Assembly: GCA_029260535.1 (NCBI GenBank)
Contig: JAJDDA010000230.1
Location: 1 to 45,904, forward strand
Source: Phycisphaerales bacterium
GTDB lineage: Bacteria; Planctomycetota; Phycisphaerae; Phycisphaerales; UBA1924
DNA: 45,904 nucleotides
Direction: 5' to 3'
Part shown: positions 15,041 through 45,085 of the stretch, one piece after another
How positions within the stretch are numbered: position 1 is the stretch's first letter
Layout: every line of letters begins with the position of its first letter
Program-made: the position numbers and the translations under genes
Notes under the pieces: model-generated
Databases searched by the model: none
The model's input: only the letters and a program-made list of their open reading frames with translations
What the model was told of the DNA's origin: nothing

Positions 15041-16504
15041 ATGAAACGCCAACTCGCTCTCTCGTTTTTCGCAATCACCGGCACGATCGCCGGCATCGCA
15101 ATCACCAATTCCTCCGCGCCGATCACGGCTGACATGTCCGAGGCGCTGCCCGCCGGTGACGTGTCCCAACTCGCGCATTGCGTCGAGAGTGACTTCGTCA
15201 GCACGATCTTCGCCCCCGGGACCGACCCGAAGGTTGTCGAGCGTGTCTCGCGGGCCATCGAGAACCTCAACGCCGGGCAGCGCTTCCAGCCCGGCAACCG
15301 CTGGCCCGGCGCCGACAACACGCCGGTCACGATCACTTACAGCTTCCCTGCGGATGGGATCAACATTCCCAACGGTGTCGGCGAGGGCGCCGGTCCCAAC
15401 AACCTGAACTCCACATTGACCGGGCAGTTCGGCTCTTCGAGCACCTGGAAGAACAAGTTCGCGCAGATCTTCCAGGCTTGGGAAGACATCACGGGCAACG
15501 TCTACATCGAGGTTTCCGATGATGGCGCCGCGATGGGTTCGTCAGGTCCATTGCACGGCGGCTCTGGTCGCGGCGATATCCGCATCACCGGCAAGAGCAT
15601 CGACGGCAACTTCGGCATCCTCGCGTACAACTCGTTCCCCGGTAGCGGTTCCGGCGGCGACATGGTGATCGACACCGATGAGTTCTGGGCCAACTCCAGC
15701 CAGGACTTCCGCTTCTTCCGCAACACGCTCTCGCACGAGCACGGTCACGGCATGGGCTTGTTCCACGTCTGCCCCATCACGCAGACCAAGCTGATGGAGC
15801 CTTTCCTGACCACCGCCTTTGACGGCCCGCAGCACGATGACATCCGCGGCGCCACGCACCACTACGGCGATTTCTACGAGCCCAACAACAACGCCGCCTC
15901 CGCTGGCTTCCTCGCGTCGCTGACCGGCCCCGGCTCGTTCCCGTTTGTGCTCGATGACATGGCGCTTCGTGATGACGCGGATGAGGATTTCTACTCGTTC
16001 ACCATCGATGGCGCCGGCTCAGTTGATGTTGAGGTCCGTATCGTTGGTGCGGTCTACGAGAACAACCCGCAGGACCAGGCTTGCGCCCCGACGGGCAGCA
16101 CGTTCGATTCGACCGCCCGCATCGACCCCGATCTTGCGGTTCTTGATACCGACGGTGTCACCGTGCTCGCTTCGGTGGACGCCAACGGCCTCAGCGGCAA
16201 CGAATCGCTGACCGGTGTCGTGCTCCCCGCTGCCGGGACGTACTTCATGCGGGTCAGGCCCGTGAACAGCCCCGGCGTCGCGCAGATCTATGACCTCGCC
16301 GGGACCGTCACGATCGATGCGATCATGTCGGTGGACTGCATCGCGGATCTGAATGATGACGATATCGTCGACACCGCCGATCTGGGCATCCTCATCGGTG
16401 TCTTTGGGACGAACTCGCCCCTCGCTGATCTCAACGACGACAACATCGTTGACACCGCTGATCTGGGCATTCTGATCGGCGTCTTCGGGACCTGCACCGA
16501 GTAA
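15041..16504 (+). CDS. Secreted M10 (matrixin-like) metalloprotease with dockerin-like tail
   Basis: A 487-residue protein with a signal peptide (about residues 1-25). The catalytic domain carries the extended zinc motif H232-E233-x-G-H236-x-x-G-x-x-H242 and a Met-turn candidate at M252 (K-L-M-E-P-F), then Q-H-D-D-I-R-G-A-x-H-H-Y-G, the usual end of matrixin domains. Residues about 290-430 resemble a pre-peptidase C-terminal (PPC) beta sandwich, with D-D-A-D-E-D-F-Y-S-F and A-A-G-T-Y-F-M-R-V. The last ~50 residues are two near-identical loops of the form D-L-N-D-D-x-I-V-D-T-A-D-L-G-I-L-I-G-V-F-G-T, a dockerin-like Ca-binding pair. It should be an extracellular zinc endopeptidase. A paralogue follows immediately. 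Confidence 0.9.
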   Translation: MKRQLALSFFAITGTIAGIAITNSSAPITADMSEALPAGDVSQLAHCVESDFVSTIFAPGTDPKVVERVSRAIENLNAGQRFQPGNRWPGADNTPVTITYSFPADGINIPNGVGEGAGPNNLNSTLTGQFGSSSTWKNKFAQIFQAWEDITGNVYIEVSDDGAAMGSSGPLHGGSGRGDIRITGKSIDGNFGILAYNSFPGSGSGGDMVIDTDEFWANSSQDFRFFRNTLSHEHGHGMGLFHVCPITQTKLMEPFLTTAFDGPQHDDIRGATHHYGDFYEPNNNAASAGFLASLTGPGSFPFVLDDMALRDDADEDFYSFTIDGAGSVDVEVRIVGAVYENNPQDQACAPTGSTFDSTARIDPDLAVLDTDGVTVLASVDANGLSGNESLTGVVLPAAGTYFMRVRPVNSPGVAQIYDLAGTVTIDAIMSVDCIADLNDDDIVDTADLGILIGVFGTNSPLADLNDDNIVDTADLGILIGVFGTCTE

Positions 16505-36894: not shown

Positions 36895-36928
36895 GTTGGT
36901 CGGGATCCAAAGTTGGTCGGGATCCAAA
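36895..36928. repeat. Exact 17-base tandem repeat upstream of acnA
   Basis: GTTGGTCGGGATCCAAA occurs twice head to tail (36895-36911 and 36912-36928), 22 bases upstream of the acnA start. GGATCC is the core of each copy. It may be a replication slip or a paired regulatory site. Confidence 0.9.
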
Positions 36929-37013
36929 GAGGGATCGCTCAATCACTTTAGATCGGCTGGATCAGGATGTCAGATTGGCAAGGCCCGGAGATCGGCTGGT
37001 CAGGCGAAAAAAC

Positions 37014-37517
37014 TCAGCCCCGGCGCCCGCATTCGGGGCACACCCCGCCAGCGAGCCCCTGCAGGTTGTATCCGCATCCCAGGCACAGCCCCCTGCGGGT
37101 GATCGATCGGGCCCGCAGCCGCCTGCCGTGACGTGCAGGGAGCATGGTTAGCGCGATGCAGCCAACGGCGGCGCTGCCGACGAGCAGCAGCGCGAGGGGT
37201 TCGCCGAACAGCCCGATCGCCCAGATCGTGGGTGGTGTCGCCAGACCGATCGAGCCCCAGAGCGGGTTCACCGGGATGAACCGGCCGATCAGCCACGCCG
37301 GCGCCATCGCGGCCAGCGGCGCCCCGAAGAGCCCTGCCCAGAAGAGCGACGGCGCGACGGCGCCCCACATCGATTGCTGCGCCAGGCTCGCCAGCGCCAT
37401 CATGTACTGCGCCGAGACCGCCAGCGCCGCAAGGAACACCGCCGCATCGAGCGATGTGCACACGAATGGATCGTGCTCAGGCTCGCGCCCCGTGATATTC
37501 GCACAGGGCTGGTTCAT
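37014..37517 (-). CDS. Membrane protein with C-terminal zinc ribbon
   Basis: A 167-residue protein with about four hydrophobic segments (A-A-V-F-L-A-A-L-A-V-S-A; S-L-F-W-A-G-L-F-G-A-P-L-A; W-G-S-I-G-L-A-T; L-A-L-L-L-V-G-S-A-A-V-G) and a basic loop, then a cytoplasmic-looking zinc ribbon, C-L-G-C-G-Y-N-L-Q-G-L and C-P-E-C-G. No enzyme or transport motif was recognised. Its start overlaps the stop of the M61 peptidase gene (37514-37517), so the two are translationally coupled. The ribbon matches that of the unrelated-looking membrane protein at 25305-26123. What the ribbon binds is unknown. Confidence 0.75.
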   Translation of the reverse strand: MNQPCANITGREPEHDPFVCTSLDAAVFLAALAVSAQYMMALASLAQQSMWGAVAPSLFWAGLFGAPLAAMAPAWLIGRFIPVNPLWGSIGLATPPTIWAIGLFGEPLALLLVGSAAVGCIALTMLPARHGRRLRARSITRRGLCLGCGYNLQGLAGGVCPECGRRG

Positions 37518-39397
37518 CGAGGAGTGGCGATCTCCGCGATGTAATCGGTGGCGCCCTCGATCGGGACGAGCCTCGCGTGGCGGAGCCCGCCGTCGTAGAC
37601 GAGCGTCTTGCCGAAGAACTTACCGCCGAACTTGACGAGCAACTGGATCTCACCGGTGGTGACGGATTCCCTGACCGCCTCTTTCAGCGCCGCGGTGGAG
37701 AATTCCTGATCGTTGACCGCGACGATCGTCATGTCGTACGCGAGCTTGGCGTCGTCACCGATCGAACCGAGCAGCAGCGTGGTGATCACGCCCTCCTTGT
37801 CGACGGAAAAACCGAGCGATGTGCGGAGGTCGAGGCCCTTGTCCTTCTTGATCGCTTTCGCCTGCAGTTTCGTCGGCTCCTGCACAAACTCCAGCGTGTA
37901 GCCGAGCAACCCCGGCAGCTCGATCGCCAGCTCCTGCGCGGGGGATTCGATGCGTCTCGCGATCTCCGCGTCCCAGTCGGTGCTGGGGTCGATTGTGTGC
38001 AGCGCTTCGACGACATCCTGCCGGGTGTATGTCGAGGGGCTCCCCATCGGGCCCCGGACCGCGTCGAAGAAGAGCCTGCAGAAATCGTCGAGGCTCCGCT
38101 CGTTGCGCGAATTGGCGCGGATCGTCGCGTCGGCCTCCATCCAGAAGAGCGCGCCGTCGCCGTAATAGTCCTGGCGCCTCCGCATTTCTTCCCACGACTT
38201 GCTCCGGTCGCGGAGCCGGCTCTGCCCTCGCGCGGTATCGACGACCGGGCGCCACCGCCTGCCGGACTGCAGCTGATACCGCATGATGTTGTTCGTGATC
38301 GTGTGGGTGTACTCGTCGGGTGTCAGCAATCCCGCGCGGACCGACAGCACGTCGTCCATGTAGCTCGTCAGGCCCTCGTACACCCAGAGCAGGTCGGTCA
38401 CGCCGGCCTCGTGGAAGTTGCGAGTCAGCAGCCCTTCCGGGACGCGGAGCTTGCCGTTCCAGCAATGGATGTACTCGTGCGGGATGACGCCCATCTTCGA
38501 GCCGTCGGGTTTCTCGCAGTCCGTCCAGGTGTCGCTTTTCATCGAGATGAACGTGCAGGTGTGGTGTTCGAGGCCGAACCCTGGGACCTCGTCGGACACG
38601 AACGTCAGGTAGTCGAACCGATCGCTCGGGAAAGGACCGAAGACTTTGACCGCCTGCTCGTGGACGCGTTTGAGTTTCTCGGCGCGCGCCTCGGGCAGGA
38701 ACAGATTCGATTGGTCGCGCGCCACGCCGTGCAGGTAGTGGTCGGGGATCTCGTCGGTGGAGAGGTCCACGGTTTTGAGGTGCTCGCCGAAGATCGCGGG
38801 GGAATCGACCAGCTCCGCGAGTGAGACGTTGTCGTACTCGATCTTGCCATCGGCAGTGCGTGCGGCACGCAACGGCGTCGCGATTGACCAGCCCTCGGGC
38901 AGCGTGATCGTCGCGTCGATCAGGAGCTCGTCCTTGTCGGCATCCTCCGGATAAAACAGGACGGTGTTCCAGTTGATCCCGCCGAGTGTCGGCTCGCCGT
39001 AGCTGTCGGTGGATTTCGAGTTCGTCGTCGGCTGGCTCGCGATGTAGGTCAGCCGCACGATGACGTGCTTGTCCCATTCGGGGACCTCGGTGATCGTGAT
39101 GCGCGTGTCGTGCGTCGGGTCGCGCCGCCAGGGGAGGATGCGTCCTGATTCCGTCTCGGCGCGGAGGTTGACGACGTTCTGGATCGGCCCGCTCGGGTTG
39201 TGGTTGCCCGGGGTCCACTGGACGTACCGGATCACCGTCTCGCCGGCAGTCGCCGGGATGGCGAGCGTTGCGTGGATCAGTCTCCGCGGCGCATCGGTCG
39301 CATCCACGTCGAGGCGCATCGAGGCGCCCAACGCTGACGTGACCCAACACAGCGCGATGGCAAGAGATAACAACGGGGTTTTATTGTTCAGGCGCAT
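37514..39397 (-). CDS. M61-family (glycyl aminopeptidase-like) peptidase with PDZ domain
   Basis: A 627-residue protein with a signal peptide ending near A-L-G-A (residue 25). The N-terminal domain is beta-rich (W-T-P-G-N-H, a known M61 pattern). The catalytic domain shows G-F-G-L-E-H-H-T near 273, the zinc motif H307-E308-x-x-H311-C-W-N, and E341 in L-W-V-Y-E-G-L-T-S-Y. These are the M61 signatures, including the E-G-L-T-x-Y motif that supplies the third ligand. A PDZ-like domain sits at the C-terminus (S-L-G-F-S-V-D; T-I-V-A-V-N-D-Q-E-F-S). It should be a periplasmic metallopeptidase. Coupled by ATGA overlap to the zinc-ribbon membrane protein. Confidence 0.9.
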   Translation of the reverse strand: MRLNNKTPLLSLAIALCWVTSALGASMRLDVDATDAPRRLIHATLAIPATAGETVIRYVQWTPGNHNPSGPIQNVVNLRAETESGRILPWRRDPTHDTRITITEVPEWDKHVIVRLTYIASQPTTNSKSTDSYGEPTLGGINWNTVLFYPEDADKDELLIDATITLPEGWSIATPLRAARTADGKIEYDNVSLAELVDSPAIFGEHLKTVDLSTDEIPDHYLHGVARDQSNLFLPEARAEKLKRVHEQAVKVFGPFPSDRFDYLTFVSDEVPGFGLEHHTCTFISMKSDTWTDCEKPDGSKMGVIPHEYIHCWNGKLRVPEGLLTRNFHEAGVTDLLWVYEGLTSYMDDVLSVRAGLLTPDEYTHTITNNIMRYQLQSGRRWRPVVDTARGQSRLRDRSKSWEEMRRRQDYYGDGALFWMEADATIRANSRNERSLDDFCRLFFDAVRGPMGSPSTYTRQDVVEALHTIDPSTDWDAEIARRIESPAQELAIELPGLLGYTLEFVQEPTKLQAKAIKKDKGLDLRTSLGFSVDKEGVITTLLLGSIGDDAKLAYDMTIVAVNDQEFSTAALKEAVRESVTTGEIQLLVKFGGKFFGKTLVYDGGLRHARLVPIEGATDYIAEIATPR

Positions 39398-39445: not shown

Positions 39446-39487
39446 AAAGAAAAAGGCCGCCGATCCTCTTGCAAAGGATCGGCGGCC
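39446..39487 (-). terminator. Rho-independent terminator of the sigma/PDZ operon
   Basis: A 13-bp perfect stem (39455-39467 with 39475-39487) and seven-base loop are followed on the minus strand by TTTTTCTTT. It lies 59 bases after the stop of the 660-residue PDZ protein gene and before the M61 peptidase gene, so it separates the two transcripts. Confidence 0.92.
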
Positions 39488-39545
39488 CCAAGGAGACGCC
39501 GCTCGGCAGCGCACCGGAGCACCGGTGAACCAGCCGGCTACGGCA

Positions 39546-41528
39546 TTAGTCGATTTTTTCCGCGAGCCGCTCGAGCAAGGATTCGATCCGCTCCATGCGC
39601 TCTTCCAGTGACTCCAGCCGATCCGCCAGGCCCTGGTTGCGATCAGCAAGCCGGTGCGTGAGATGGGGCGCAGCCGGCGCCGGTGCGCCGTCCCGCTCGA
39701 CATTGAAGAAGACCTCGCCCTGACCGCCGGGGAACGTGAATGACTTGCCTTTCCCGCCGGGGCCCACGCGGAACATACCCTTGCCCGGCTCGCCCTCGAT
39801 CACGACGAACGAGTTGCCCTCTTCGTCGTCCTCGCCGGGAAAGAACTCGATGTTGGGCATGTCGACATTGAATTCGAATTCTTCGAACTGGTTGCCGAGC
39901 TGGCTGAGCTGCGCCTTGATCTGCGCCATCGTTTCTTTGTCGAGCTGGCCATCGAGTTCGCCGAGTTTCAGGAGGATCGATTGGATGTCCTCGTTGCCGC
40001 GCTGGCGGTGTGTCCGCTGCGTGTTGAGATGCCGCTCGACGCGTTCCTTCGCCCTGCTCAAGGCGCGTTGGGCCTGGCTGTGCTCGCGTTTCACATTGTC
40101 GCGGGTTAACCCTGGCAGTACCCGCTCCCGCCCTTTCACGCCTGGTGCGTCAACCCAGGCGCCGACACTGTGCTCAGTCGGAGCTTCGACCAGGTCGAGC
40201 ACGAAGGAGTGCGGATCGCCGCCGCGGAGGACTTTGAGCTCGACTTTCTCGCCTGCGCTCTTGGACCCGATGATCTTCTGCAGCATCGGTGTGCTGATCC
40301 CGTCGTGACCATCGATATTGGTGATGATGTCGAACCGGCGGAGCCCTGAGAGTTGCGCCGGCATCCCGTCCATCACGCTCTCGATCATCACCACGCCCTC
40401 GGCGTCAACACCGAGTTGTGAGGCGAGCGCATCGCTGATGGATCCGAGGGTGACGCCGATCATGACGCGCTGCTCGAGAATATCGGCGGGCGCTGTCTGA
40501 TCGTCGGTCACCACCCAGGCGCCGGTAGTTTCACCCTCTGCGCCGGCTAAAGCGAGCTTCAGATCGGCGATCCCGGCGAGTCCGTCGCCGGTCACGCTGA
40601 TGCCCGAATCGCTCATCACGCCGTGGCCATCGCCGAAGAACATGATGTTGTTCTCGTCATCGGAGAATTCGAACACCTCGTTGTCATCCGAGCTCCAGAC
40701 GTTGTTCCCGCCGCCTTTGATGATGAAGCTCTTGCCGGCCTTGCCTTGCTTGCCGATTTTCTTGTGCTTGAGGATCTCGTGGATCTTCTTGTTGTTCTGG
40801 TTGTTGCTGAGATCGATGTGCTCGCCATCGATGATGACCTCGATCCTGATCTCGCCATCGGCGTCGTCGATCCCGAGATCACCCATGCTGAAGTCACCAT
40901 CGCCGAGGCGCTCGATGATGACCTCGTGCCGCTCATCGCCATGGAGATTGTGCAGTTCATGCAGTTCATGCAGTTCATGAAGCTCGTGCAGCGGGGCGTG
41001 CTTGCCGCCGAGGCGGATCGCCTTGCCACCCTTTAAACCCTTCAGTCCCTTCAGTTCCTTCAGGCTTTTGAGTTCGTGGAGACCGTGCAGGTTATCAAGA
41101 CCGCTGAGATCGATGGTCTCGCCGTTGATGACGATTTTGATCTCGCCACCGCCGCCCGACCGGCCGTCGATGCGGTGCTTGATGACATCGATAATTTCGC
41201 CAGACCCGCCGCGTGACATCCGGATTGCTTGAGGGGCGCTGCTCCCGGAGCAGCAAACAGATCCCTTGCTCTTCGTAGTGAGGCGATCGACGAGGACCTT
41301 CCCGCCAAACCTGGGTGCGGCAACCCTGCCGTGCGAACCTTTGGACTCATCGAGTTCGATCACGACAACCTGCTCGCCGCCATCGCCAGATCGGGAGACC
41401 CAGGTTTGCGAACTTTCCGGGCCATGATCGCAGACCTTCATCATGTGCTCCGCGTTGGCGGCGCCCGCGATGCTCAGCGAGCAGATCCCGCCGGCGAGCA
41501 TGGTCAGTGTTTTTATTTTCCTAAGCAT
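39546..41528 (-). CDS. Exported PDZ-domain protein with Leu/His tripeptide repeats and coiled coil
   Basis: A 660-residue protein with a signal peptide ending A-N-A near residue 26. Residues 141-165 have Leu at every third position (L-K-E-L-K-G-L-K-G pattern) and residues 180-197 repeat L-H-E four times, then L-H-N-L-H-G. Each follows or precedes a strand pair ending G-E-x-I-D-L-S (about 128-142 and 225-241), suggesting an internal duplication. A PDZ domain spans about 356-450 (M-I-G-V-T-L-G; G-L-R-R-F-D-I-I-T-N-I-D-G). A charged helical region follows, then an acidic segment, and a C-terminal coiled coil (632-658). No protease domain is attached. It is the last gene of the sigma/anti-sigma operon. 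Function unknown. Confidence 0.8.
   Translation of the reverse strand: MLRKIKTLTMLAGGICSLSIAGAANAEHMMKVCDHGPESSQTWVSRSGDGGEQVVVIELDESKGSHGRVAAPRFGGKVLVDRLTTKSKGSVCCSGSSAPQAIRMSRGGSGEIIDVIKHRIDGRSGGGGEIKIVINGETIDLSGLDNLHGLHELKSLKELKGLKGLKGGKAIRLGGKHAPLHELHELHELHELHNLHGDERHEVIIERLGDGDFSMGDLGIDDADGEIRIEVIIDGEHIDLSNNQNNKKIHEILKHKKIGKQGKAGKSFIIKGGGNNVWSSDDNEVFEFSDDENNIMFFGDGHGVMSDSGISVTGDGLAGIADLKLALAGAEGETTGAWVVTDDQTAPADILEQRVMIGVTLGSISDALASQLGVDAEGVVMIESVMDGMPAQLSGLRRFDIITNIDGHDGISTPMLQKIIGSKSAGEKVELKVLRGGDPHSFVLDLVEAPTEHSVGAWVDAPGVKGRERVLPGLTRDNVKREHSQAQRALSRAKERVERHLNTQRTHRQRGNEDIQSILLKLGELDGQLDKETMAQIKAQLSQLGNQFEEFEFNVDMPNIEFFPGEDDEEGNSFVVIEGEPGKGMFRVGPGGKGKSFTFPGGQGEVFFNVERDGAPAPAAPHLTHRLADRNQGLADRLESLEERMERIESLLERLAEKID
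40942..40995 (-). repeat. Nine-base tandem repeats encoding (Leu-His-Glu)n
   Basis: tgcagttca occurs three times exactly (40951-40959, 40960-40968, 40969-40977), flanked by diverged copies. The unit is nine bases, so gain or loss of copies would keep the reading frame and change only the number of L-H-E tripeptides. Confidence 0.85.
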
Positions 41529-41599
41529 TGGCGTTGAGCCTCCTGATTCGGCGTAGTTGTTGAGCCGTGGTGTGGTGTTGTTTATGACAAGGTTGTTGG

Positions 41600-42616
41600 T
41601 TACGCGGGGACCGAACGCGTTCTGGCCTTGGGCGCCATCTCGGACGCGTCGATAGCGCCCGGCTTCTTCTTCTCGGGGGCGGGCGCCGCCTTGGGTTGTG
41701 TCGGCGCTCGGAGCAACGGCGCCCAGTGCGGGATCACGACGCGTCTCGGCGCTCGAATGTGGCCATGGAGTTGTGATTCGAGCATCCGATGGAGCGCTTC
41801 CAGTTCGATCGCATCGTCAGATCCAAAGTTGAACGCGTTGAAGGCCGGCGCAAGAGCTGGTGAGGCGTCGAGCACGACCTCGATCGTTTGGCGCTGCCCG
41901 GTTCGGATTAGTTCGACCGAGACGGTTTCGCCGGGTTCGTGAATGCTCAGGGAATCAGCGAGCGTTTTGGCGCCGAGCGGCTCGCCGTCGATCGCGATCA
42001 GCACGTCGAACTGCTGCAGCCCTGCCGCATCCGCTCCGGAGCCTGGGGTGATGAACTCCGCGACGACCCCGCACTCGATATCGAGTTGCGCAAGCATCGC
42101 CTCGTCGGCGGGGGTCACCTTGACGCCGAGCGTGGCCCTCGCTCCGGGGACCGCCGGTGCGAAGGCGCGGTCGAACGAATGGAACGCGAACCCGGCGTCG
42201 CCGATGGTCGGGTTGGACTTGCTCGTCTCGAACGCGACCTCGCCGTCAGGGTCGAGGATGCGAACCGTGTCGCCCTCCTCTTCGAGTGTGTACTCGCCGT
42301 GGGCTTCAATCTTTTTGAGTTTGCCGTCGGCGATCGAGACCTTGAACCCGCCACGCTCATCGTGGGTCGTGATCGAGGCGCTGTTGGAAGTTGTTGTGAC
42401 AGACGAGGTGTCCTGGCAGGGGATCACGCGGACTCCGATCTGGCGATCGAAGTCGTCTGCGTTTTGCACCAGAACCGGCGCAACCTCGGCGGCGGCGGTC
42501 GCCGGCAGCTCGATGACGTTGTGGAGCAGGTCTCCCAGCATCGGGCGCCACTGGGCGCTCGCGGTGAGCACCGCGCCGGCGGAGATCATCAGTGTTGTTT
42601 CGATCGCTCTGTTCAT
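41600..42616 (-). CDS. Exported PDZ-domain protein
   Basis: A 338-residue protein with an N-terminal signal-like segment (T-L-M-I-S-A-G-A-V-L-T-A-S-A, residues 8-21). A beta-rich domain with D-G-K-L-K-K-I-E and E-E-E-G-D-T-V-R-I-L-D-P-D-G precedes a PDZ domain at about residues 161-250 (T-L-G-V-K-V; G-V-V-A-E-F-I-T-P-G-S-G-A-D-A-A-G-L; F-D-V-L-I-A-I-D-G-E-P-L). The C-terminus is Pro/Lys-rich and probably disordered. No catalytic domain is present, so it is a binding or scaffolding PDZ protein. It lies 45 bases after the anti-sigma-like gene and 71 bases before the larger PDZ protein, on the same strand, all likely one operon. Confidence 0.82.
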   Translation of the reverse strand: MNRAIETTLMISAGAVLTASAQWRPMLGDLLHNVIELPATAAAEVAPVLVQNADDFDRQIGVRVIPCQDTSSVTTTSNSASITTHDERGGFKVSIADGKLKKIEAHGEYTLEEEGDTVRILDPDGEVAFETSKSNPTIGDAGFAFHSFDRAFAPAVPGARATLGVKVTPADEAMLAQLDIECGVVAEFITPGSGADAAGLQQFDVLIAIDGEPLGAKTLADSLSIHEPGETVSVELIRTGQRQTIEVVLDASPALAPAFNAFNFGSDDAIELEALHRMLESQLHGHIRAPRRVVIPHWAPLLRAPTQPKAAPAPEKKKPGAIDASEMAPKARTRSVPA

Positions 42617-42661
42617 TGAATCCCTCCAGATGAAGGCGGTGTGTGTGCTGGTGCGTGTGTA

Positions 42662-43288
42662 TCAGATCGGGTCGGAGGCCTGGATGACTCTCGGCTCGAT
42701 CGGGACGGGGGTCGCCCTGCCCTGATCGTCTTCACCGAGGCCGTACACCCCGTTGACGACCTCGCGCTCGAGCAGCTGCCGGAGGTAGATCACCTCGACG
42801 CGAACGCCGTCGGGCATCGCCCTGGCCTCGACCATCACCTTGGGCATCTCGCCGATGTACCGGCCCTCTTGCTCGCCGACCGAGCGGTATTGATTCAGCG
42901 CATCGTCCGCGCTGGCGGGGACAATACTGATCCCGGCCTGGTTCGTCGGTGTCAGTTCGGGGTTGAACATCGGAACAAGGTCCGCCCCAAGCCACGCGAG
43001 CGCCACCGCAGCGGCCATCGCCCAGCCGATCCACGGGCTGAACCGGCGCGAGAAAACGTGCTCGGCGCCGGCGCCTGCGATACCGAGGGGCAGCTCGATC
43101 GCGTCGGCGGCTTCAACGGCGACACCAACCGCGGTGCGGAGGTTGGCCGCGTCGCGCTGCTCGCGAGCGAGTTTCTTCCAGACCTCGGGTTCGAGCGCCG
43201 CGAGCTGCTCGAACGATTCCCAGTCCTTTGATGTAGCCTCGTCGTCAACGATCCGGCTGATCAGGATGTCGGTGTTGGTTGGTTCCAT
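42662..43288 (-). CDS. Probable anti-sigma factor (single-pass membrane protein)
   Basis: A 208-residue protein beginning with an acidic/helical cytoplasmic part (I-S-R-I-V-D-D-E-A-T-S; L-E-P-E-V-W-K-K-L-A-R-E-Q) of the kind found in RseA/RskA-like anti-sigma factors. One hydrophobic helix lies at about residues 85-103 (W-I-G-W-A-M-A-A-A-V-A-L-A-W-L), leaving a ~100-residue extracytoplasmic domain. No H-x3-C-x2-C zinc motif is present, so it is not a ZAS-type factor. The anti-sigma role is inferred from topology and from its place 54 bases after an ECF sigma gene. Released by proteolysis, it would free the sigma factor. Confidence 0.72.
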   Translation of the reverse strand: MEPTNTDILISRIVDDEATSKDWESFEQLAALEPEVWKKLAREQRDAANLRTAVGVAVEAADAIELPLGIAGAGAEHVFSRRFSPWIGWAMAAAVALAWLGADLVPMFNPELTPTNQAGISIVPASADDALNQYRSVGEQEGRYIGEMPKVMVEARAMPDGVRVEVIYLRQLLEREVVNGVYGLGEDDQGRATPVPIEPRVIQASDPI

Positions 43289-43342
43289 GATTGCGCTCCC
43301 AAGTTGCGCTCCATCGCACTGCTATTCCGTCTGGTCTTCCGT

Positions 43343-43957
43343 TCAGGCCCCGGCGCCCTGGCTCTGGCCCTGCGTGATCCGCATCGTTGCGGCTTCCTGT
43401 TCAAACTCGATCTCATCGCGGACCATCCGTCTGGCTCTCGCGATCCTGGTCTCGATTGTCGTCACCGGCAGCTCGAGCGTCTGCGCGATCCGCCGGTAAC
43501 TCATCCCCCGGACACACCGCAGCAGCAAAGGCTCGCGGTAATCCGGGTGCAGCCTCTGCGCCGCTTCCAGCGCGCGAACCGCCTCGTTCTTGAGCGCCTC
43601 CGACTCGTCGTTTTCCGGCGCCGGCGCCTGCTCGACGTCACCACCGGTGGGCACGAGACGCAGGCGGACTTTCCGCTTCCGACCGGCGGCCCTCGCCGCG
43701 TTGATCGACACCGTCCGAAGCCAGGGGCGGATCTTGCTCGGATCACGGACATCGTGGATCCGGCGGACGAGCGTCATCGCGACTTCCTGCAGGAGATCGT
43801 CCAGCTCGGCGTCCTTCGGCTTGTGCGCCAACAGGATCGCCGCCACCCAGCGGCGGTTGTCCGACCAGACCTCTCGGAGCCACGCCTGGTCATCCTCACC
43901 GTGGTGATGGTGATCAGCCGCCCCGCTGCCCACGAGTTGTCCGCGTTCTTCGCTCAT
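43343..43957 (-). CDS. ECF-type RNA polymerase sigma factor
   Basis: A 204-residue sigma70-family protein. Region 2 covers about residues 30-95 (D-D-L-L-Q-E-V-A-M-T-L-V, R-P-W-L-R-T-V-S-I-N-A-A-R), including the polymerase-binding D-L-L-Q-E-V motif. Region 4 covers about 125-182, with the helix-turn-helix G-M-S-Y-R-R-I-A-Q-T-L-E-L-P-V-T-T-I-E-T-R-I-A-R-A. Regions 1.1 and 3 are absent, as expected for ECF factors. The N-terminus has a His run (D-H-H-H-H-G). It is the first gene of the operon with the anti-sigma-like and PDZ genes, and is divergent from tatC. Confidence 0.9.
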   Translation of the reverse strand: MSEERGQLVGSGAADHHHHGEDDQAWLREVWSDNRRWVAAILLAHKPKDAELDDLLQEVAMTLVRRIHDVRDPSKIRPWLRTVSINAARAAGRKRKVRLRLVPTGGDVEQAPAPENDESEALKNEAVRALEAAQRLHPDYREPLLLRCVRGMSYRRIAQTLELPVTTIETRIARARRMVRDEIEFEQEAATMRITQGQSQGAGA

Positions 43958-44137
43958 TCAGAGAGTCTTGATGCGCTCCGATCGCCGATCCGGGCGCCTT
44001 CCCGAGATTTTTCGCACCGCCCCAGTGCCCGGCGTATCCTCACCGCTCGGCATCGCTTTTTATACGGCTCCGGGCTTCGATTGTTGCCCGCCCTCCTGTT
44101 CTCGGACGCTCCAGTGACACCACCCCCGCACCACACC

Positions 44138-45085
44138 ATGTCCTTCGGCGAGCACCTCGATGAGCTGCGAAAACGCCTGATCCACGCCCTGCTGGGCCTG
44201 ATTCCCATCTTCGTCGTCGCCCTCGTCTTCGGGGGGCCGATCCTCGAATTCCTGATCGTCCCCGCCGAGGATCAACTCCGGGCGGCAGGACAGGCCAGCC
44301 GGCTCCAGGCAACAGGCCCCGCCGAGGTATTCATCGCGTATATCAAGGTCGCCCTGGTCCTCTCGATCCTCGTGGGTGGTCCCTGGCTGATCTATCAGGT
44401 CTGGCTCTTCGTCTCGCCCGGTCTTTATAAGAACGAACGGCGGTTCGTCTACGTCCTCATGCCGCTTTCAGCAGCACTGACCGTGGTGGGGATGATGTTC
44501 CTCTATTGGGTCATGCTCCCGGTGATGCTGGGGTTCCTGATCACGTTCTCATCCAATATCGCCCAGACCTCCGCATCAACGGCGCCGTTGCCTGAGGGGA
44601 TCGTCCTGCCCATCGCGCCGATGCTTACCGTCGATCCGACCGAGCCACCCCCCGGCGCCTTCTGGTTCAACGACAGCCTGCACGAACTGCGCTTCGCGCT
44701 GCCTGATGCGGACGGCGAGGGCGTGGCGCAGATCCTGGGAGTTCCCATGACCGGCGGCGCCCTGATCTCGCAGCAGTACCGCGTCAGCGAGTACATCGGG
44801 ATGGTCTTCGGGCTCGGCATCGCTTTCGGGATCGCGTTCCAGCTCCCGCTGGTCATGCTCCTGCTCGGGTGGTCAGGGATGGCGGATCCGAGATTCCTTG
44901 CGAAGCAACGCAAGTACGCGCTGCTCGCCTGCGCCCTCGCCGGCGCGATTCTGACACCCGCCGACCCCGCGTCGATGGTCCTGCTCGCCGGGCCGCTGTA
45001 CGGGCTCTTTGAGGTTGGACTGCTGCTGATGCGGTTCGTCCCGTCGCGCAAGCCGACCACCGATGGCGCCATGGGAGCCGACTGA
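44138..45085 (+). CDS. tatC: Sec-independent protein translocase TatC with enlarged periplasmic loop
   Basis: About 315 residues from the ATG at 44138; a GTG at 44114 is an alternative. The N-terminus M-S-F-G-E-H-L-D-E-L-R-K-R-L is diagnostic of TatC, which binds twin-arginine signal peptides. S-P-G-L-Y-K-N-E100-R holds the conserved glutamate in the first cytoplasmic loop. Six membrane helices are expected. Between the third and fourth, residues about 140-212 form a loop some 60 residues longer than in E. coli TatC (contains D-P-T-E-P-P-P-G-A-F-W-F and P-D-A-D-G-E-G-V). Later landmarks L-L-G-W-S-G-M-A-D-P-R and L-T-P-A-D-P-x-S are normal. The stop overlaps the tadA start. No tatA/B gene is nearby. 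Confidence 0.95.
   Translation: MSFGEHLDELRKRLIHALLGLIPIFVVALVFGGPILEFLIVPAEDQLRAAGQASRLQATGPAEVFIAYIKVALVLSILVGGPWLIYQVWLFVSPGLYKNERRFVYVLMPLSAALTVVGMMFLYWVMLPVMLGFLITFSSNIAQTSASTAPLPEGIVLPIAPMLTVDPTEPPPGAFWFNDSLHELRFALPDADGEGVAQILGVPMTGGALISQQYRVSEYIGMVFGLGIAFGIAFQLPLVMLLLGWSGMADPRFLAKQRKYALLACALAGAILTPADPASMVLLAGPLYGLFEVGLLLMRFVPSRKPTTDGAMGAD

Follow-up and report, generated by a model that had tools for sequence, protein, structure and literature searches.

How is a sigma factor controlled when the genes that follow it encode an anti-sigma factor and exported PDZ proteins that carry no protease? The question is raised by four genes of a Phycisphaerales bacterium (Planctomycetota, lineage UBA1924) located in a stretch of 45,904 nucleotides, contig JAJDDA010000230.1 of assembly GCA_029260535.1, which is part of a 3.1 Mb draft genome and is referred to below, at its full length, as the window. 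The genes encode an extracytoplasmic function (ECF) sigma factor, a single-pass anti-sigma factor and a small and a large PDZ protein (Table 1), and an original prediction, made from the sequence alone, had proposed that together they form an undescribed envelope-signalling system. How Planctomycetota sense envelope stress is poorly understood, and for many ECF systems of this phylum the input has yet to be assigned.

The results described here support that proposal for a smaller unit, consisting of the sigma factor, the anti-sigma factor and one stand-alone PDZ protein, and they rest on the conservation of these three genes, on a comparison of anti-sigma C-termini with the presence of PDZ genes and on a promoter motif located at envelope-stress genes; the form with two PDZ proteins did not emerge as the unit. 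On balance, we favour a sigma-E-like, autoregulated envelope-stress switch in which the stand-alone PDZ protein would bind the tail of the anti-sigma factor.

Conservation of the operon

Gene calls agreed with the original description of four minus-strand genes, separated by gaps of 54, 45 and 71 bases and followed by a single terminator-like hairpin. The sigma factor carries the Pfam domains Sigma70_r2 (PF04542) and Sigma70_r4_2 (PF08281) and scores 63.8 bits against TIGR02937 of NCBIfam, for which the cut-off is 42.9. With regions 2 and 4, no region 3 and a length of about 200 residues it has the layout of an ECF sigma factor.

Orthologues of the anti-sigma factor were found in 43 of 61 relatives, mostly one per genome, at 28–47% identity. 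Those relatives that occur in named collections are for the most part Phycisphaerales and Planctomycetota metagenome-assembled genomes. Clear orthologues are limited to several families of one order, and weaker matches to the N-terminal region occur in other orders. The sigma gene lies 5' of the anti-sigma gene at 47 of 48 loci, and a PDZ gene follows immediately 3' at 47 of 48. A second PDZ gene is present at only seven of the 48 loci, including the window and several members of family f4, and the conserved unit is therefore sigma/anti-sigma/PDZ, with the double PDZ arrangement as a variant. Thus the gene order originally put forward is conserved for its first three genes and not for the fourth. 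A tatC gene (44138–45085 in the window) is divergent from the sigma gene at 36 of the 48 loci.

Two loci depart from this pattern. At one (L052, genome G003) the anti-sigma gene, the PDZ gene and the promoter motif described below were found and an upstream sigma gene was not recognised. In genome G019 the operon (anti-sigma locus L084) lacks the PDZ gene, and an unlinked PDZ homologue (L251) is encoded elsewhere in the genome.

Dozens of genera share the gene order, which also appears in other orders with proteins that have diverged, and it is therefore more than chance. No description of it was found in the literature searched; outside that literature it may have received earlier mention as an ECF subgroup.

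The anti-sigma C-terminus and its PDZ neighbour

Comparison across genomes links the anti-sigma factor to the PDZ protein through its last residue. A large hydrophobic residue (V, L, I, M, F, Y or W) terminates 42 of 48 family members, as against 35 of 334 neighbouring open reading frames (ORFs; about 10%), and is similarly uncommon at the end of orthologous proteins from these loci (TatC 5/36, sigma 3/36, PDZ 1/53); the excess corresponds to a Fisher p of about 1e-27. The hydrophobic fraction is 0.88 at position -1 and 0.08–0.31 at positions -10 to -2. A further, independent set of anti-sigma factors gave a hydrophobic last residue in 23 of 30. An origin in overlapping stop and start codons was considered and rejected, given that the last codons are diverse (TAT, TAC, ATG, ATC, TTC and CTC).

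Distant anti-sigma factors from other orders and families, divided according to whether a PDZ gene is adjacent, served as a control. In the first set all eight with a PDZ gene had a hydrophobic end, compared with five of 12 without; in the second, consisting of non-family loci, the proportions were 6/6 and 6/33, the latter becoming 6/28 when weak matches in long ORFs were removed. For both sets combined, with duplicates removed, the counts were 14/14 with and 8/40 without a PDZ gene (p 1e-7), and both this and the preceding p-value are too small, the true values being less extreme, because the genomes are related and not independent. Ten PDZ neighbours of these distant anti-sigma factors were scanned, and all carry a PDZ domain and no protease domain.

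The small PDZ protein of the window has a signal peptide, a beta domain (residues 70–132) and a PDZ domain (160–252; 35.3 bits to Pfam PDZ_2), while the PDZ domain of the large protein spans residues 358–443 (39.2 bits). No protease domain was detected by Pfam in either, in agreement with the original prediction, and among relatives all 33 partner proteins scanned contain PDZ and none a protease domain. There was no match to a trypsin-like domain in the window's PDZ proteins or their relatives, placing them outside the HtrA/DegS proteases, and no Pfam match to the MucB_RseB domains in the 33 partner proteins, placing these outside the RseB/MucB family. The modelled small PDZ domain nevertheless belongs to the HtrA type, having both the HtrA-like fold and the Phi-G-Phi carboxylate-binding loop: it superposes on the PDZ domains of DegQ, AlgW and peptide-bound DegS, with a Z of 17.3 and a root-mean-square deviation of 1.4 for DegQ PDZ1, and the loop is intact in 53 of 53 PDZ proteins of these operons.

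A hydrophobic tail together with an intact PDZ loop constitutes the signature of a candidate C-terminal PDZ ligand and, judging from these sequence patterns, the anti-sigma tail probably binds the PDZ protein of its own operon.

Among the distant loci, the anti-sigma factors at L148, L149 and L158 end in ALGTF and are followed by a protein of 402–419 residues that may represent another type of C-terminal partner. This large ORF was rejected as a PDZ protein; it yielded no PDZ match and only a weak one to STN.

The original prediction had also drawn attention to histidine clusters in the sigma N-terminus and the large PDZ protein. The HHHH run occurs in one of 47 sigma factors, that of the window's genome. 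In the large PDZ protein a nine-base tandem repeat at 40951–40991 (LHELHELHELHELHNLHG) encodes HEL repeats, which are absent from its relatives. The idea of a metal sensor was dropped for this lack of conservation.

Fold of the anti-sigma factor

The anti-sigma factor of the window scored above threshold for no Pfam or NCBIfam family, and its 46 aligned relatives similarly lack a Pfam family. An AlphaFold model based on 46 sequences (predicted local distance difference test score 84) shows a cytoplasmic domain made of helices and a helix across the membrane, then an alpha/beta domain in the periplasm and finally a loose tail at the C-terminus. The positive-inside rule placed the N-terminus in the cytoplasm for 36 of 48 members and gave the opposite orientation for six.

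A plain Foldseek search with the model returned nothing significant, domains of MucA, RsiW and RslA being notable by target coverage. With VIA-align, RsiW, RslA and MucA were the best matches (Z 6.2, 6.0, 5.2 and 5.2), followed by an unrelated entry at 3.6. Residues 1–72 of the model thus show the class I anti-sigma (ASDI) fold, defined by a cytoplasmic three-helix anti-sigma domain and a fourth helix, at Z values of 5.2–6.2 which are middling. This agrees with the anti-sigma-like character originally proposed for the protein. A sequence profile search with the family matched none of the solved anti-sigma factors.

The HxxxCxxC zinc motif, whose absence had been remarked upon earlier, was found in none of 48 family members, 28 of which have no cysteine at all, and the family therefore falls outside the ZAS group. 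The motif is missing from about 44% of class I anti-sigma factors (PMC7406223). Membership of the RseA family was also rejected: RseA_N (PF03872) gave no match in 31 genomes, where the Escherichia coli control was positive, nor in 46 family members.

Taken with the fold, the conserved pairing of the two genes (47/48 loci) leads us to infer that the protein binds and inhibits the sigma factor, and the two are almost certainly a sigma/anti-sigma pair.

Promoter motif and candidate regulon

A promoter-like motif, TGACGG-N13-GCGCATC, was found 5' of the sigma gene. Using a refined matrix it was present at 41 of 47 loci (39 of 47 in a leave-one-out test), with no matches on the reverse strand and 0–1 in shuffled sequences. 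In the window the GCGCATC element lies at 43976–43970, 12 bases 5' of the ATG. A second copy occurs between the anti-sigma and PDZ genes at 15 of 46 loci and in neither of two controls. Separate promoters had originally been named as grounds for doubting a single system; in part they would apply, to the PDZ genes of those 15 loci, and no such copy is present in the window. In G019 the motif lies 68 bases 5' of the unlinked PDZ homologue. Autoregulation by the sigma factor is very probable within the family.

A strict pattern search of 61 genomes of the family yielded more than 100 matches, whereas the reversed pattern gave a handful. Among the matches outside the operon, 29 of 53 examined are intergenic. 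The genes located 3' of such sites include those for HtrA proteases (three genomes), MoxR ATPases (two genomes), exported LTXXQ-like proteins (two genomes) and a peptidase of the S41 type (one genome); the HtrA, S41 and LTXXQ-like assignments were confirmed by Pfam for one member each, and the others were made by sequence inspection. In other genomes many further HtrA-associated matches overlap the 3' coding region of the gene before HtrA, and these were left out of the count. These TEVMARRI-like sites were dropped because in G012 (L290) the peptide is nearly retained and the DNA site is broken, so that coding is the simplest explanation for their conservation. The presence of the motif before the sigma gene, and before quality-control genes in relatives, supports a possible role in envelope stress.

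A proposed mechanism

In the mechanism that we favour, the membrane-bound anti-sigma factor would hold the ECF sigma factor through its cytoplasmic domain. The periplasmic tail of the anti-sigma factor, with its last residue as PDZ ligand, would be bound by the exported PDZ protein encoded by the next gene, much as RseB binds RseA but through PDZ recognition of a C-terminus. Stress may then draw off the PDZ protein, for example through the exposed C-termini of misfolded envelope proteins, and the uncapped anti-sigma factor could be degraded by PDZ proteases (HtrA, S2P), releasing the sigma factor. The freed sigma factor would in turn drive transcription of its own operon, in many cases of the PDZ gene as a separate unit, and of genes for envelope quality control. 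The role of the PDZ protein as a cap released under stress is put forward tentatively.

Several observations weigh against this mechanism, in addition to the relatedness of the genomes mentioned above. About 12% of the family tails lack a hydrophobic end, mostly with the PDZ gene still present; the anti-sigma factor of G019, where the PDZ gene has been relocated, ends in Q; and hydrophobic ends also occur in five of the 12 PDZ-less anti-sigma factors of the first control set, three of these five belonging to the single ALGTF lineage. Moreover, the window's own promoter copy is weak, at 11.7 bits and 7.2 in the leave-one-out test, and only part of the family has motif sites upstream of HtrA.

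An alternative that we consider unlikely, yet far from negligible, is that the tail is mainly where PDZ proteases (DegS/HtrA, RseP-type S2P or Prc) dock in order to start degrading the anti-sigma factor, the PDZ protein being a decoy or adaptor or delivering the anti-sigma factor to the protease. E. coli RseP needs a hydrophobic C-terminal residue on cleaved RseA, the window's genome encodes a split M50 (S2P-type) match and HtrA-like proteases, and the three motif-bearing HtrA genes also fit. The PDZ tandem of RseP is treated in PMC7728848. Against this alternative, hydrophobic ends were found in only eight of the 40 distant anti-sigma factors that lack a PDZ neighbour, although such proteases are expected in their genomes too.

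Less probable still is an ordinary sigma/anti-sigma pair for which the PDZ protein is a product of the regulon, a chaperone-like or scaffold effector without a signalling function, and the hydrophobic end serves, for instance, in membrane association. The PDZ gene's own promoter copy, kept when the gene is unlinked, and its retention in G019 beside a tail ending in Q would both be accommodated. The association of tail and PDZ gene in distant lineages argues against it, as do the sharp restriction of hydrophobicity to the very last residue and the invariance of the carboxylate-binding loop. That the genes are chance neighbours in a compact genome, forming no functional unit, is effectively refuted by a gene order that dozens of genera have kept and that recurs, though the proteins have diverged, beyond this order.

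Relation to known systems

The Phycisphaerales system follows the sigma-E plan of sigma factor, anti-sigma factor and, very probably, autoregulation (PMC8103513). As in E. coli sigma-E/RseA/RseB, an ECF sigma factor is paired with a single-pass anti-sigma factor lacking a zinc motif, a periplasmic partner is encoded next, the motif is found at HtrA and at folding and quality-control genes, and C-termini are predicted to be recognised by PDZ domains. The differences are that the anti-sigma factor lies outside the RseA_N family, that a PDZ protein takes the place of RseB, that the operon's PDZ domains are free-standing, where those of DegS and RseP are carried on proteases, that the hydrophobic C-terminal residue is on the intact anti-sigma factor's own tail, and that the motif has a sequence of its own. 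Judged from sequence, the departure from the sigma-E plan is the stand-alone PDZ partner together with an anti-sigma factor that, while still intact, ends like a PDZ ligand.

The Pseudomonas aeruginosa AlgU/MucA/MucB/AlgW system is similar in that the MucA domain and the AlgW PDZ domain were among the top structural matches, and differs in having MucB where a PDZ protein occurs here and in that the present operon lacks a protease gene. The class I anti-sigma fold is shared with RsiW of Bacillus subtilis SigW/RsiW and RslA of Mycobacterium tuberculosis SigL/RslA, whereas the zinc motif of RsiW (5wuq is a zinc-bound form) is absent from this family. We know of no PDZ partner operon for either of these systems. 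Relative to HtrA, DegP and DegS, the PDZ domain is of the same type, but in place of the trypsin-like domain there is a small beta domain with low-complexity or coiled-coil tails.

Other features of the window

An M61 glycyl aminopeptidase gene (37514–39397), with a weak C-terminal PDZ match, lies immediately past the operon terminator. It was ruled out as a fifth member of the operon, being located beyond the terminator and adjoining the operon at only four of 48 loci. Elsewhere, an 81-base repeat at 16341–16491 resembles a dockerin or EF-hand-type pair (DLNDDNIVDTADLGILI), and two copies of a perfect 17-base tandem repeat occur at 36895–36929 (GTTGGTCGGGATCCAAA).

Table 1. Features of the sigma/anti-sigma/PDZ operon and their positions in the window
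Feature	Position	Strand	Basis
Candidate autoregulatory ECF promoter, GCCCGG-N13-GCGCATC	43965-43998	minus	position of orthologues' motif
ECF sigma factor, 204 residues	43343-43957	minus	Pfam PF04542 and PF08281; NCBIfam TIGR02937
Single-pass anti-sigma factor, 208 residues, no Pfam family	42662-43288	minus	orthologues and AlphaFold model
Cytoplasmic anti-sigma domain, residues 1-62	43103-43288	minus	VIA-align fold match
Transmembrane helix, residues 84-104	42977-43039	minus	AlphaFold model
Flexible periplasmic tail ending ...QASDPI, candidate PDZ ligand	42665-42694	minus	hydrophobic last residue in family
Small exported PDZ protein, 338 residues	41600-42616	minus	Pfam PDZ_2
Carboxylate-binding loop Phi-G-Phi (L163-G164-V165) of small PDZ protein	42122-42130	minus	kept in family
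Large exported PDZ protein, 660 residues, HEL repeats	39546-41528	minus	Pfam PDZ_2
Intrinsic-terminator-like hairpin, 3' of last operon gene	39453-39489	minus	17 pairs, 10 G-C, then T run

Implications

These results give the system a layout, a promoter motif and a candidate regulon, and they lead to a prediction about a single residue, the one that ends the anti-sigma factor. It may, as a possibility that we advance with some reserve, exemplify a widespread planctomycetal ECF class whose anti-sigma factors each end in a PDZ ligand of their own and are gated by a periplasmic PDZ protein that stands alone. Stress would be sensed by competition, with free C-termini of misfolded envelope proteins displacing the PDZ protein and so opening the anti-sigma factor to proteolysis. 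If this is true, the reading of C-termini by PDZ domains, as DegS and RseP perform it, would have passed out of the protease into a partner protein of its own and be aimed at the anti-sigma factor itself, and the genomic patterns suggest that these planctomycetes have an undescribed route for sensing trouble in the envelope.

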